This document shows positions 1-13,556 of a stretch of 13,556 bases of DNA, piece by piece. How positions within the stretch are numbered: position 1 is the stretch's first letter; every line of letters begins with the position of its first letter. Source of the stretch: Candidatus Acetothermia bacterium (GTDB taxonomy: Bacteria > Bipolaricaulota > Bipolaricaulia > Bipolaricaulales > Bipolaricaulaceae); the NCBI GenBank assembly GCA_023255835.1, contig JAGDVW010000088.1:18144-31699 (forward strand). Direction: 5' to 3'. The translations under genes and the position numbers were made by a program. The notes beneath the pieces were generated by a model. That model was not told the origin of the DNA. It saw nothing but the letters and a program-made list of their open reading frames with translations, and did not search any database.

Positions 1-692
1 GGATGGGAGCTGGTGAACCGGACCCTCGGGATGGGTATTTCCCCGATCTCCCGAAGGAGCCGCGCAAAATTCGTGCCATCCCGCAAATCCCACCCATAAG
101 CATCGACGTTCTGCCCAAGGAGGGTGACCTCCATATACCCCTTTTCCGCGAGCTCCCGCACCTCGGCGAGGACTTCCGGCATGGGCCGGGAGCGCAAAGG
201 CCCCCGGACTTTGGGGATCACGCAGTAGGCACAGGAATGGGAACACCCTTCGGCGATGGTCACGTACGCCTGAAATGGGCTTTTTCGGAGGGCGGGCAGG
301 CGCTCTAGTTCAAGGGGCTCGGGCAAGAAGGCCGCGCGCTCGCCCTTTTGGGCTTGAGCGATGAGCTCGGGCAGGCGGCGAAGGCCGGTGGTGCCGAAGG
401 CGAAATCCGCAGCAGGGCAAAGGGAGAAGATCTTTTCTCCGCGGCCTTGAGGCATGCATCCGCCTACGCCGATGAGGACCGGCCGGGTCCGCTTGAGCCG
501 AGAAAGCTCGCCCACCCTGCTCATCACCTTCTCCTCGCTCCTTTGCCGCACCATGCAGGTATTGAGGATGATCACATCCGCTTCCTCTGGGCGCTCGACG
601 ATGGTGTATCCGGCCGCGGCCAGAACCCCGGCGATCTCCTCGCTTTTGTGATGGTTCAACTGGCAGCCCCAGGTGAGGACACAGGCGCGCAT
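1..692 (-). CDS. miaB: MiaB-type tRNA methylthiotransferase, N-terminal part (cut by window edge)
   Basis: This radical-SAM enzyme adds the 2-methylthio group to N6-isopentenyladenosine at tRNA position 37. About 230 of roughly 440 residues are visible and the C-terminal half lies left of base 1. The N-terminal UPF0004 domain has the three expected cluster cysteines: C10 in TWGCQLN, C46 in LNTCMVR and C79 in GGCMPQ. The radical-SAM CxxxCxxC follows at C150/C154/C157 within AEGCSHSCAYCVIPKVRG, then LLGQNVDAYG. TWGCQLN and NTCMVR favour MiaB over RimO (GCPKN) and MtaB (GCKVN). The ATG at 692-690 lies 7 nt after a TAGGAT box with a TTGTGG element 17 bp further upstream, so the message is probably leaderless. 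A GTG directly upstream (695-693) is an alternative start. The gene is divergent from the lpt fusion gene. Confidence 0.93.
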   Translation of the reverse strand, partial: MRACVLTWGCQLNHHKSEEIAGVLAAAGYTIVERPEEADVIILNTCMVRQRSEEKVMSRVGELSRLKRTRPVLIGVGGCMPQGRGEKIFSLCPAADFAFGTTGLRRLPELIAQAQKGERAAFLPEPLELERLPALRKSPFQAYVTIAEGCSHSCAYCVIPKVRGPLRSRPMPEVLAEVRELAEKGYMEVTLLGQNVDAYGWDLRDGTNFARLLREIGEIPIPRVRFTSSH

Positions 693-699
693 CACCTCG

Positions 700-728
700 A
701 TCCTAGTCCGTTTCGTTTTCCCCCACAA
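700..728 (-). promoter_or_regulatory. miaB promoter (-35 TTGTGG, 17 bp, -10 TAGGAT)
   Basis: Read on the minus strand, TTGTGG (728-723) and TAGGAT (705-700) are separated by 17 bp, and the -10 box is 7 nt from the miaB ATG. The expected transcription start falls at or next to the start codon. The motif is seen directly; its use as a leaderless promoter is inferred from the same spacing at other genes in the window. Confidence 0.55.
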
Positions 729-751: not shown

Positions 752-3685
752 GTGCGGCTCAGTGTGGATAGGTACATATTCCGGGAGATCCTCCCCCCAT
801 TTTTCGTGAGCCTTTTGGCCTTCCTCGTGTTCATCGGGCTAGAGCTCATCCTCTCCCTTTCCGATGCCCTTTTTTCCCGGGGGATTTCCGCGGCCACGCT
901 CCTCCGCCTCCTTTCCTACAAGCTCCCGAACATCCTGACCCTGGCAGCCCCCGCGGGGGTCCTTTTGGCCACCTTCCTCGCTTTGGCCAGGCTCGCTTCG
1001 GATCGGGAACTCTTGGCTTTTCAGGCCCTGGGTTATTCTCTACGGCGCCTCCTCCTGCCTTTTTTGGGCTTTGGGCTTGTGGTGAGCGCCCTTTCCTTCG
1101 CTTTTTCCGAGTTCGTTGTGCCCAATGCCGAGGTCTCTTATCGGCGGGAACTCCTGGCGATCCTCTACCGGGGGCCAGCCCCTTTGGTCCAGGAGAACGT
1201 GTTTTTCCGCGGCCCGCAAGGAGAACTTTTCTACATCGAGCGCTATTCCGGCCAGAAGGCGGAAGGGGTGGTGGTGTACGATCTTTCCGGCCAACTCTAT
1301 CCGCGCAGCTCCTTTCCCGCGGTGATCACCGCTAAGGAGGGGAGGTTCTCCTCCGGCCAACTTTTCCTCAAAGATGGGCGGGTCCTCCGTTTTGGCCCAA
1401 AGGGCGAGCTCACCGAGATCCTAGGCTTTGGGGAGCTTTCCCTGGCCGTGGGGGAGGGGGTGGAGGAGGCGCTCCTTGGCAGCCGTACCCCAAGCGAGAT
1501 GTCCACGCGGGAATTGCGTGAGCGCCTTGAGCTTTTGCGGAAAAGCGGGATCGATGTGCGTGATCTCCTTGTGGAGTACCACGGGAAACTCGCGGTGGCG
1601 GCGGCGGCCTTCGTGTTCGTGCTCTTTGGCGCGCCCCTTGGGGCGATCCTCGGCCATCGCGGCCGGGCCACCGGCATGATCGTGGGCTTCCTCCTCGCGG
1701 CCGGGGCCCAAGCCCTTTTCCTCTGGGCCCGGACCCTGGCCCGCCGGGGCTTCCTCCCCGCGGCCCTGGGCGGTTGGCTTCCCCACCTGATCTTCGGGGC
1801 CCTCGGCCTCCTCCTCTTCCTCGGGGCGGACCGCTTGCGCTTCCGGGGCCTCGTCCTATTCCTCCTCCTTGGCGTCGTGGGCTTCGCCTCCCCTCCGTTT
1901 CAAGAACTCGTGGCGGAGGAATTGGTGGTGGAAGACGAGGGGAGAACTTTTCTGGCCACCCAGGCCCAGGTGGTCCTCGGAGAATATACCCTCTTTGCGG
2001 ATCGCCTTTCTTTGCATGAGGAAGGGATATGGCGCCTTGAGGCCTGGGAAGCCCGCGTGCAATCTCAAGACTCCGCGGTGCAAGCGGAATCAATCAAAGC
2101 CGACCTCACGGCGGGGGGAGTTCTCACCAGGGCCGAGCTTCGGGGGTTCTCCGGCGCGGCCAAGTTCCAAGGGCCGGAGAAGGAGGAAAAGATTATCTTT
2201 TCCGCGGACGAAGGGGAGGTGGAGTTCGAGGGAGGGGAAATGGTCAAAGTTTTTGGGAAAAACGTGAGGTTCACCACCTGCCCTTGCCCTGAGGGCGCAC
2301 CATATCTCGTTCAGGCCGGGGAATTCCTCCTCGTCCCCGAGAAATGGCTTTTCGCGCGGGACCTCCGGGTCACCTCCTTCGGCTATCCAGTGGTTTGGCT
2401 TCCTTTATACGCCGCGCGCTTGGGCGAGGAGGGGATCCCTTTTTTACCGGAGATCGGGACCTCCTCCTTGGGCTTTTTCCTGCGCTGGTCCTTTCCCTGG
2501 ACGCCGGCCCAAGGCACGGTGGGGACTTTCCTCCTCACCCTCTATCCCCAGGCGGGGCAGGTGGAGCCGGCCTTATGGGTGATCGGCGAGGATGGGAGCT
2601 TATTCGTTTCCAAAGAAAGGGCCTCCGTGCGTTTTCAGGGGCGCCTCCTTGGGGAGCCCTGGAGCATTCGCGCTAGCTACGATCCTTCAGGGCTCCTCCT
2701 TTCCCTGACCGGGCGGGTCCAGGGCTGGCAGGTGAGCGCCACCGCTGGCCTGGCCGAAACCGAGCGCACCTCTTACTTGCGGCTCCCAGAGATCTCTTTT
2801 TCCCGAGTTTGGAAGGTTTGGGATGGGGATTTCGATTTGAAGCTGGGCTTTGGTCGGTATCGCGAAGGGGAGGTGGAAGGCTGGCGCGCGGGCCTCGCCG
2901 GGAGCTGGCGGAGATCCCTCAAGCTTTTTGGGCAGAGCGTGCAAATCCCCATCGGTTTCGGATTGGATCAATATCCGAAAGCAGAACGGATTTACCTGAG
3001 CTTCCGGCCCACCCTCGCCCTCGGCCCGGTCTCCCTTTGGTATCTCTGGCAAAGGAGCCTTGGCCGCTCGGTCTTCACCTTCGATGCCGCTCCCTCCCAG
3101 GATCAACTGGGGCTTAGTCTTCAAGTATCCGAGCGTGGCTGGACTCAAAGTTTAACCCTCAGCTGGGATTTTTCTGGCCAGGAGATCCTTCCCCTGCGCT
3201 GGAGCTTAAGGGGCCAGAATTTCTCGGCCACCCTCGCCTTCCAAATCTCCCCCCTTTCCCTTTCCCAGCTCAAATGGACCGGCGGCCTTCAAGGGGCGGG
3301 ATGGCTCCTCCAATTCTCCGGGGGTTTTTCCGGTTCTGCCTGGGAGGATCTCCTTTTGCGGGGGCGGATAAGCGGGGAGGGCTGGGAAATGGCGGGTGGG
3401 TTGCGCCTCGGCTGGCCAGGGTTTTTCCCCAAAAGGATGGCCATTTCCGCCCAAGGGGCCTGGAGCGCGGAGTGGGGCTGGGCCCTGGCTTGGGAATACG
3501 ACTTTCCCAGTAGGAGCTTTGCTCAATTTGAGGGCACTTTGTACCGAACGTTTTCCGGCTGCCTTCGCCTGGGCCTGAGCGTTTACCCCGGCGGCTTCCG
3601 CTTGAGCCTGGACATCCCGGCTTTCCCCGAGGCCAAGGTGGAGTTTGCCCCCCTGGACGAAGGGCTTCGCCTGGGCGGGCTATAA
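752..3685 (+). CDS. LptF/LptG permease fused to an LptD-like outer-membrane protein
   Basis: One uninterrupted frame of 977 aa. Residues 1-360 form an LptF/LptG (YjgP/YjgQ) permease, part of the inner-membrane exporter that extracts LPS. They start with VDRYIFREILPPF, have three N-terminal membrane helices (about 14-36, 55-82, 98-120), a periplasmic domain, then three more (about 279-300, 307-328, 343-361) including the family hallmark LFGAPLGAILGHRG. A second signal-like segment follows: RFRG, then a hydrophobic core at 373-379 region ending GFA|SPP (predicted cut after A379). Residues 380-977 look like LptD: an OstA-type beta domain (about 385-505), TTCPC (C510, C512), a conserved FGYPVVWLPLY-like stretch, then a long aromatic-rich, alternating beta-barrel region. 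I chose GTG 752 because of the -10 spacing; ATG 740 and GTG 764 are alternatives. No start codon with a good Shine-Dalgarno lies between the halves; only TTG at 1835 is possible. Confidence 0.82.
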   Translation: MRLSVDRYIFREILPPFFVSLLAFLVFIGLELILSLSDALFSRGISAATLLRLLSYKLPNILTLAAPAGVLLATFLALARLASDRELLAFQALGYSLRRLLLPFLGFGLVVSALSFAFSEFVVPNAEVSYRRELLAILYRGPAPLVQENVFFRGPQGELFYIERYSGQKAEGVVVYDLSGQLYPRSSFPAVITAKEGRFSSGQLFLKDGRVLRFGPKGELTEILGFGELSLAVGEGVEEALLGSRTPSEMSTRELRERLELLRKSGIDVRDLLVEYHGKLAVAAAAFVFVLFGAPLGAILGHRGRATGMIVGFLLAAGAQALFLWARTLARRGFLPAALGGWLPHLIFGALGLLLFLGADRLRFRGLVLFLLLGVVGFASPPFQELVAEELVVEDEGRTFLATQAQVVLGEYTLFADRLSLHEEGIWRLEAWEARVQSQDSAVQAESIKADLTAGGVLTRAELRGFSGAAKFQGPEKEEKIIFSADEGEVEFEGGEMVKVFGKNVRFTTCPCPEGAPYLVQAGEFLLVPEKWLFARDLRVTSFGYPVVWLPLYAARLGEEGIPFLPEIGTSSLGFFLRWSFPWTPAQGTVGTFLLTLYPQAGQVEPALWVIGEDGSLFVSKERASVRFQGRLLGEPWSIRASYDPSGLLLSLTGRVQGWQVSATAGLAETERTSYLRLPEISFSRVWKVWDGDFDLKLGFGRYREGEVEGWRAGLAGSWRRSLKLFGQSVQIPIGFGLDQYPKAERIYLSFRPTLALGPVSLWYLWQRSLGRSVFTFDAAPSQDQLGLSLQVSERGWTQSLTLSWDFSGQEILPLRWSLRGQNFSATLAFQISPLSLSQLKWTGGLQGAGWLLQFSGGFSGSAWEDLLLRGRISGEGWEMAGGLRLGWPGFFPKRMAISAQGAWSAEWGWALAWEYDFPSRSFAQFEGTLYRTFSGCLRLGLSVYPGGFRLSLDIPAFPEAKVEFAPLDEGLRLGGL

Positions 3686-3693: not shown

Positions 3694-4233
3694 ATGAAAA
3701 GGCGCGAGAGAATTCCTGATTGGCTTACGGCTAGCCGTGTTCTCATCGCTTTTGCTATCCTTGCCCTCATTCCGGTGGGACCGCAGGCCCTGGGGGCGGT
3801 GGCCGGGCTCCTCCTTTTGGGGTGGACCACGGACATGGTGGATGGCCGCCTGGCCCGCCGCTACGAAAAGGAACCCACCTGGCTTGGCGAGCACGACTTC
3901 CAGATCGACATGATCATGGTCCTCGCTTCCGCCATCTTCCTCACCGCCACTGGACTTGTGCCCATGGAGATCGGTGTCCCCTACATCTGCGGGGCCGTCC
4001 TCCTTTCCCTTTACACTCTGCGCTACCGCCACTTCCTCAAGTTCAAATCGGTCACAATGCTCTTGGCCTTCCCTTGGGTTTTTACGCCTTTCGTGATCGC
4101 CCTCTTTCGGGATCCAATTGCGGCTTATGCCGGCTTGGCCTGGATGACTTTGGCCCTCATTTTGGATTGGCGGCGGTTCCTCGGGGTGGTGGGCGACTTC
4201 CTCTCCGGGGCGCGGGCCTATTTCCGGCGCTAA
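3694..4233 (+). CDS. CDP-alcohol phosphatidyltransferase family protein (PgsA-like)
   Basis: A 179-aa membrane enzyme of the family that moves a phosphatidyl group from CDP-diacylglycerol to an alcohol such as glycerol-3-phosphate, inositol phosphate or serine. The N-terminus [15 protein letters not shown] is typical of PgsA-like members. The catalytic motif is present at residues 47-72: D47, D50-G51, A54-R55, D68 and D72, with the aspartate spacing intact. The usual glycine at position 64 is Leu and a Gly follows at 65. Hydrophobic helices cover about 16-44, 74-92, 95-108 and 124-156. The ATG sits 7 nt after a TATAAT box. The acceptor alcohol cannot be read from the sequence; location after an LPS-transport gene supports an envelope lipid role. 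The stop codon overlaps the convergent ruvB stop. Confidence 0.85.
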
Positions 4234-12877: not shown

Positions 12878-13556
12878 ATGAAAAAAGTTTGTTTGTTTTT
12901 GGTTTTTAGTTTATTGGCGGCCCCAGCCTGGGCTAAATTTGGTCCAGCTGATTTCGAGCGGATGGCTACAAAGGATGTGATCCCGGAGATCCGGTTAGCT
13001 GCCGCATACGCCCTCGTAAACACCTATGCCGCCACGAAAAGTTCGGAGGAGCTTCTAAAGCTTGCCGAGAGCGGGAGCCCGGAGGCCTTGAGGTTGGCCG
13101 CGTCATTGGCCCTGAGTCAAAAGTTGTTGGATGCTGGCAAAACCAAAGACGAACTCATGGCCATGGCGAGCACGGGCGCGACCCCTGAGGTCCGCGCTGC
13201 CGCCGTGCCGGCGTTGATGGAGCTCTTGGTGGCCGATAAAGCCGACGCCCTCCTGGAGTTGGCCAAAACCGGGGCCTCCGAGGAGCTTCAATACGCGGCG
13301 GGCAAGGCCTACCTCCAGAAAATACGGAGCAAACTCGATCGAGCTAAGCTCGAGGCCATCTGTAAGGATGAGTCGCTGCCCGCGGGCTATCGCCGGGCCG
13401 CGGCAGAGGTTTTGGCCGGCTACTATCTCTTCCCCGCCCAGACCGCTCTCTCCCGGGCCCAGTTGGAGGAGCTAGCCCTGACCGATGCCAATCCTTACAT
13501 CCGATACGCCGCCGCTTATGCTTTGGTGAACTTTCTTGTGGAGGAGACGGCTGATT
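12878..13556 (+). CDS. Secreted HEAT-repeat protein (cut by window edge)
   Basis: The visible 226 residues start with a signal peptide, MKKVCLFLVFSLLAAPAWA, predicted cut before KFGPADF. No lipobox is seen. The mature part is a string of alpha-helical HEAT-like repeats of about 35-43 residues. Recurrent helix-B cores are EIRLAAAYALVN, EALRLAASLALS, EVRAAAVPALME, ELQYAAGKAYLQ, GYRRAAAEVLAG and YIRYAAAYALVN. HEAT repeats serve as protein-binding scaffolds; the partner is unknown. The first codons are unusually AT-rich, which helps translation start. ATG 12878 follows a strong Shine-Dalgarno. The gene has its own promoter and continues past base 13556. Confidence 0.85.
   Translation, partial: MKKVCLFLVFSLLAAPAWAKFGPADFERMATKDVIPEIRLAAAYALVNTYAATKSSEELLKLAESGSPEALRLAASLALSQKLLDAGKTKDELMAMASTGATPEVRAAAVPALMELLVADKADALLELAKTGASEELQYAAGKAYLQKIRSKLDRAKLEAICKDESLPAGYRRAAAEVLAGYYLFPAQTALSRAQLEELALTDANPYIRYAAAYALVNFLVEETAD

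Follow-up and report, generated by a model that had tools for sequence, protein, structure and literature searches.

How does an outer-membrane protein reach its place when its gene is the tail of an inner-membrane permease gene? The question is raised by lptFD, a gene of a Bipolaricaulota metagenome-assembled genome (MAG), in which a permease of the lipopolysaccharide (LPS) transport (Lpt) type runs on in one frame into an LptD-like protein. It lies in a 13,556-nucleotide stretch of contig JAGDVW010000088.1 from Candidatus Acetothermia bacterium; this whole stretch was analysed and is called the window below. To our knowledge, LptF, LptG and LptD are separate proteins in the known Lpt systems, and no LptF-LptD fusion was described in the titles and abstracts returned by searches of open-licence literature. 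The fusion, its spread over two phyla, the LptF and LptD homology of its halves, the conserved cysteines and a conserved signal-like junction are read from the sequences. We consider it likely, at a probability of about 0.72, that lptFD encodes a polyprotein whose internal signal peptide exports the LptD part and would be cut by signal peptidase I. The features are collected in Table 1.

Table 1. Features of the lptFD gene and its neighbours in the window.
Feature	Residues	Position	Strand	Basis or remark
lptFD: LptF/G permease and LptD-like protein in one frame		752..3685	+	977 aa; GTG 752 start
LptF/LptG permease domain	7-357	770..1822	+	Pfam PF03739
Basic loop DRLRFRG	360-366	1829..1849	+	n-region of putative internal signal peptide
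Hydrophobic core and c-region LVLFLLLGVVGFA	367-379	1850..1888	+	predicted signal peptidase I cut after A379
Putative LptD N-terminal beta-taco (OstA-like) domain	380-509	1889..2278	+	Pfam LptD_N in relatives; hhalign
Conserved cysteines C510, C512 (TTCPC)		2279..2287	+	alignment of 62 members
Putative LptD-like outer-membrane beta barrel	~545-977 (limits approximate)	2384..3682	+	all-beta model; Foldseek
Conserved cysteine C937 near barrel C-terminal end		3560..3562	+	alignment of 62 members
CDP-alcohol phosphatidyltransferase		3694..4233	+	Pfam PF01066 E 4.9e-10; 8 bases after lptFD
MiaB-like radical-SAM gene, divergent, cut at window edge		3..728	-	Pfam UPF0004 E 3e-27, Radical_SAM

Reading Frame and LptF/LptG Half

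The frame contains no stop codon from TTG 734, an alternative start, or from GTG 752 until the stop at 3683-3685. The initial annotation had described an LptF/G permease running without interruption into an LptD-like part. Both the open frame (977 codons, 752-3685) and the permease were confirmed, the latter by Pfam PF03739 (LptF_LptG), which matches residues 7-357 with E 3.3e-79 and 266.9 bits (cut-off 27.9). The two NCBIfam equivalog models stayed below their cut-offs on the same protein, with 177.4 of 230 bits for LptF and 144.1 of 240 bits for LptG. A full-length fold model of the fusion was set aside (predicted local distance difference test, pLDDT, 43.1).

The phylum sample consisted of the 100 genomes returned by a phylum search, which were queried with the window protein; 91 of them gave a match. 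The search for relatives reached 97 genomes of other phyla, 83 of them with LptF/G, and frame lengths were read for all 83. No second LptF/G copy was found in the window's genome (G000; 1.16 Mb, 83% complete). In a Pfam search of the phylum, a single LptF/G match was observed in 86 of the 91 genomes and two matches in five: G011 and G034, in each of which they are pieces of one gene, and G030, G070 and G093. At least two matches were observed in 77 of the 83 LptF/G-bearing genomes of other phyla.

LptD Identity of the C-Terminal Half

The LptD part was aligned for 62 of 67 distinct LptF loci. The split loci L058-L060 and the cut loci L037 and L062 were left out, and the duplicates or broken copies L001, L003, L007 and L011 had been dropped before the 67 were counted. 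Tested with OstA/LptD models, as the initial annotation had proposed, the C-terminal half was recognised in relatives (Pfam LptD_N in 11 of the 62 aligned members) and not in the window's own protein, whose C-terminal part gave no Pfam match even at E 10. The separate LptD of G044 (873 aa) has two LptD_N stretches and matches LptD_N at 2e-10 and LptD at 0.004, the latter below cut-off. The hhalign comparison with E. coli LptD gave E 1.5e-5 at a probability of 79; 12 of the 14 PDB profile matches are named LptD and one LptA (best E 0.0034). The model of the barrel part is all-beta with a pLDDT of 61.7. In a Foldseek search with this model the top 26 matches were all LptD chains, with a best E of 1.2e-14 and low TM-scores. 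VIA-align gave similar Z values for LptD and other barrels, and single members matched stray families at E 0.001-0.005.

Three cysteines are conserved in the alignment: C510 in all 62 members, and C512 and C937 in 60 each. C510 aligns with Cys173 of E. coli LptD, which pairs with Cys725 in a disulfide. At the place of C937, Neisseria LptD (7omm) also has a cysteine in the alignment; the Cys-Cys pair of Klebsiella LptD (5iv9) comes two positions earlier. A counterpart of E. coli LptD Cys31 is absent from the cysteines of the fusion. The lptFD protein has no cysteines besides these three, and their confinement to the LptD part fits an oxidising, periplasmic place. Taken together, weak-to-moderate profile matches, the fold search and the conserved cysteines are good but not complete evidence that the rear half is a member of the LptD family; to this degree the proposed LptD-like identity is supported.

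Distribution of the Fusion

Frame lengths were measured from stop to stop, and some include upstream codons. A single frame of 950 aa or longer contains the LptF match in 75 of the 91 matching phylum genomes (the window's own counted), and the fusion is intact in the single-contig genomes G004 and G005. One frame break was found in two genomes (G019, G011), contig-end cuts or fragments in 11 (G002, G007, G027, G034, G035, G036, G038, G067, G068, G095, G099), and separate lptF and lptD genes in three (G043, G044, G072). Of two Bipolaricaulota MAG records with the relative, L002 (G018) holds the full fusion, and in L003 (G019) the frame break falls within the LptD part. The window protein was unmatched in nine of the 100 genomes (G040-G042, G045, G055, G079-G082). 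In genus g34 (G079-G082), an LptF match is absent from all four genomes and LptB over cut-off from the three tested, while Omp85 is present in all four; Lpt may have been lost there in a lineage seemingly retaining its outer membrane. A plasmid collection yielded nothing beyond five weak LptF matches.

Among the frames of other phyla, only one LptF frame with an LptD-type C-terminus was observed, in G149: 755 aa and, past one stop, a further 394 aa in frame. No other single-LptF frame in the 83 genomes is long enough for a whole LptD. The long LptF frames of G124, G168, G139, G134, G120, G160 and G128 were rejected as fusions of this kind, since their extra length lies upstream of LptF. A different arrangement, two LptF/G matches within one frame of 728-943 aa, was seen in G121, G133, G176, G182, G184, G186 and G187; read from the coordinates, these are apparent LptF-LptG fusions.

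The single in-frame stop of G149 (locus L087) breaks the barrel part, and most genomes of its phylum have a long frame without such a break. A search of that phylum matched 100 of 103 genomes, and the LptF frame has at least 950 aa, stop to stop, in 88 of the 100. Some of the 12 exceptions (G149, G197, G201, G218, G227, G230, G237, G249, G257, G274, G289, G293) are cut or broken, and in G201 there are two copies, separate from each other and 382 and 398 aa long. For the LptD part, 30 second-phylum loci and L087 were examined. The Bipolaricaulota LptD-part profile matched 30 of these 31 with E 7.7e-6 to 7e-29, the matches often being limited to the N-terminal third of the profile; L128, which is cut short, was unmatched. 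We infer that the second phylum is Thermotogota, because two genes just upstream of the fusion in G288 match PDB entries 1sum (all 235 residues) and 1yt5 (257 of 258), which we take to be the PhoU homologue and the NAD kinase of Thermotoga maritima. The T. maritima fusion gene is presumably TM1735, going by gene order. Pfam analysis of the G288 fusion gave LptF_LptG at E 7.9e-89 and LptD_N, below threshold, at 0.013.

The initial annotation had asked whether the fusion is conserved in relatives, and the 75 frames of at least 950 aa answer this in the affirmative. A misassembly, for which it had allowed, is ruled out by the many genomes, two of them single-contig, and by the second phylum that carry the fusion. 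Relatives in which a stop separates the two domains, which it had also considered, do occur, in just three of the 91 phylum genomes; one of these, G072, is a later split, as discussed below.

Junction Between the Two Halves

Residues 360-380 read DRLRFRG-LVLFLLLGVVGFA-S, and the core ends GFA-SPP, with the predicted cut before SPP. The junction was compared in 64 sequences, that is, the 62 members of the LptD-part alignment together with L037 and L062. The loop after helix 6 is net positive in all 64 (+2 to +5, median +3; window included), and a hydrophobic core is present in all 64. The signal-peptide-like segment noted earlier near residues 362-379 is a conserved feature of the junction. An A-x-A-like motif that is not followed by proline was found in 51 of the 64, compared with 39.5 in within-window shuffles, none of the 2000 being as high. 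With one sequence per genus, the motif was found in 25 of 32 against 18.2 expected, and eight of 2000 shuffles were as high. The second-phylum junctions have the core in 31 of 31, the positive loop in 29 of 31 and a looser [AGSVT]-x-[AS] motif in 25 of 31.

In the fusion, the LptD chain has no N-terminal Sec signal; the signal-like segment is internal, after LptF. The separate LptD proteins of G044, G043 and G072 start with a signal-like N-terminus, as judged by eye. In G044 and G043, lptD comes directly after the lptF stop. In G072 it lies ~1.08 Mb from lptF on the same contig, and the lptF C-terminus still holds an apparent remnant of the segment, RDLWQRVRRAVPFLGGLAAG. G103, from another phylum, has adjacent separate lptF and lptD genes; the LptD-part profile matches its LptD at E 6.8e-27, and by eye the N-terminus is again signal-like. 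On the nature of the junction, the natural splits are stronger evidence than the motifs.

Partner Genes, Neighbours and Cargo

Genes for the partners that a working Lpt system would use were identified by similarity. The LptB model was over its cut-off in the window's genome (G000:C6:4566-5267) and, overall, in 11 of 14 genomes tested; the remaining three are also without LptF. A 228-aa LptC/LptA-like protein adjoins lptB in the window's genome and in relatives (L076:3764-4450, minus strand, G000:C6). In G000 it has a signal-like N-terminus, and its Pfam LptC match (E 0.3) is below cut-off. Frames matching it occur in L083, L077 and L078 (E 1.7e-51, 2e-48 and 6.7e-42), and so does the frame of G053 that carries LptC match (E 3.5e-5); these E-values refer to a search of few loci. 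Pfam LptC was found in 35 of the 100 phylum genomes, none of them in families f1 and f2. The absence of LptA/LptC from family f1, as read from Pfam, was rejected in view of the diverged LptC/LptA-like protein beside lptB. Pfam LptD_N was found in 15 of the 100 genomes, always in fusion frames or the LptD of G044. G044:C26 (L084) has a compact cluster in the order LptC/OstA-like gene (weak Pfam matches), lptB, lptF, lptD. Because lptB and the LptC/LptA-like gene are located elsewhere, the bridge is not replaced in full by the fusion.

Peptidase_S26 (signal peptidase I) was detected in 13 of 14 genomes tested and was not found in the split-case genome G044. Omp85 was detected in 88 of the 100 phylum genomes. 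LpxC was found in none of the 100 (control rings: 4 of 14). Because LpxC is absent from all of them, the cargo is probably a glycolipid and not LPS.

The CDP-alcohol phosphatidyltransferase gene possibly belongs to the lptFD operon, and a link to the cargo lipid is possible. Of the 72 loci L002-L073, which contain some duplicates and often have short flanks, 36 have a relative of it, including all of L002-L033. The MiaB-like gene has a relative in 40 of the 72, including the split lptF locus L060. At the far end, a HEAT-repeat protein is encoded at 12878-13555 on the plus strand; its start resembles a signal peptide by eye, and its gene runs off the window.

Discussion

As far as its sequence tells, lptFD works like an Lpt system, with a member of the LptF/G family as its front half; its cargo is probably not LPS. 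The following course appears to us the most plausible. The ribosome would make the six-helix LptF/G permease first, leaving its C-terminus in the cytoplasm. The basic loop and hydrophobic core would next serve as a Sec signal peptide within the chain, bringing the LptD part to the periplasm, and a cut by signal peptidase I would follow after A379. A disulfide may join C510 or C512 of the taco domain with C937 at the barrel end, and an Omp85/BamA protein would insert LptD into the outer membrane. The permease is probably a homodimer, because there is a single LptF/G gene, and would work with LptB and the LptC/LptA-like protein. Glycolipid would be pushed over the taco bridge to LptD.

The junction can also be read as an uncut tether, in which the segment is retained as helix seven and one chain reaches from the inner to the outer membrane. 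The length of the core and its apolar run match those of real helices, so core length was rejected as proof of a signal peptide. The A-x-A counts were rejected as proof of cleavage as well, the controls being too high: without the proline rule, the motif occurs in 50 of 64 sequences at the junction, yet also in 41, 30 and 11 of 64 in the C-terminal flanks of transmembrane helices 3, 5 and 1. With the rule, it is absent in 13 of the 64. All of this weighs against cleavage. In addition, Veillonella MlaD offers a parallel in which an inner-membrane transporter subunit and an outer-membrane barrel form one polypeptide; it is an unrelated MCE-domain protein, proposed in the text of that study to be an uncut bridge (PMC10665443). 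We nevertheless regard a tether as unlikely in lptFD. The relatives with separate genes, ~1.08 Mb apart in G072, indicate that it is not always needed. Residue 362 and the first of the conserved cysteines are 147-270 residues apart (149 in the window), and the taco there would, on a rough estimate, span ~6 nm, which is short for the usual periplasm. Moreover, a separate LptC/LptA-like protein is retained, and the A-x-A-like motifs are above shuffles.

Other alternatives concern the rear half, its translation and its history. That it is an outer-membrane barrel other than LptD, as the missing Pfam match in the window's own protein, the similar VIA-align scores and the stray-family matches might suggest, is very improbable given the PDB profile, hhalign and Foldseek results, LptD_N in the aligned members and in G044, and the cysteine pattern. 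Production of LptD also or only from a start codon lying within the LptF part is hardly to be expected. TTG 1835 does precede the core in the window, and 44 of the 64 junction sequences have some ATG, GTG or TTG there; the other 20 have none. A start before the core with a Shine-Dalgarno match of at least 4 bases occurs in two of the 64, compared with 16% of 18-codon LptF windows, a control that is not length-matched, as the stretches at the junction measure 10-26 codons and are in many cases shorter. TTG 1835 itself, which the initial annotation had singled out, has a 3-base match. Taken together, the objections that the annotation had listed mostly fail. A separate origin of the fusion in each phylum, which is compatible with any working mechanism, is rather doubtful. 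It would accommodate family f2 and G103, where lptF and lptD are separate and adjacent. In a quick tree of the LptF domain, each of the six multi-row families formed one group, and the split state required two changes. A wider quick tree (29 Bipolaricaulota, 31 second-phylum and 20 other sequences, two of them from E. coli) united both fused phyla in one clade with a support of 98 in the Shimodaira-Hasegawa-like approximate likelihood ratio test (SH-aLRT). It placed the split f2 inside Bipolaricaulota (phylum support 92) and G072 inside the fused family f9. The f2 placement is unsure because of long branches and composition, and because the method was a quick one. Fused relatives surround G072 in the trees, and we therefore regard it as a later split. 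The data are most simply read as one fusion, either in a common ancestor or with transfer between the phyla, and two later splits.

Compared with the Proteobacterial LptB2FGC-A-DE system, lptFD shares the LptF/G permease, LptB, an LptC/LptA-like protein, an LptD-like protein with a probable taco domain and barrel, and cysteines at the Cys173-like and C-terminal places. It differs in having one LptF/G match (86 of 91 genomes), LptD in the same frame, and no LpxC (0 of 100). A parallel to the proposed cleavage is FbcH of Bradyrhizobium, a cytochrome b/c1 polyprotein that is cleaved at a signal peptide within the chain. As proposed for lptFD, an inner-membrane protein is followed there by the signal peptide and then by a partner that is exported; unlike lptFD, it belongs to a respiratory complex, and its exported part remains at the inner membrane.

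Lpt genes without LPS are known from the diderms Borrelia, Treponema, Thermus and Thermotoga, where Lpt systems have been proposed as glycolipid carriers (PMC10353723). LptF, LptG and LptD of Borrelia are described there as separate proteins, unlike those of lptFD, and T. maritima is said to have Lpt orthologues (PMC10353723, citing Putker 2015). The words "fused" and "fusion" are absent from the main text of that paper. Negativicutes and Halanaerobiales have a single LptF/G, as here, together with two OstA-domain proteins; the authors found no clear LptD, and the excerpted text mentions no fusion (PMC5007114). One survey holds that, of its outer-membrane genes, almost none but bamA are present in Thermotogae, and that lptD occurs in LPS diderms alone (PMC8871954). 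The excerpted description of the first closed Acetothermia genome reports no LPS-associated genes and notes an outer membrane permease (PMC6092417).

The fusion suggests that both phyla have a pathway of the Lpt type, with LpxC absent from the 100 Bipolaricaulota genomes searched, and it bears on which envelope genes such diderms possess. Cutting and tethering present a clear choice that is testable in culturable Thermotoga. In two phyla, the energy end and the outer-membrane end of the pathway are kept in one gene, so that their ratio is set at synthesis; an equal supply of both ends may be the benefit.

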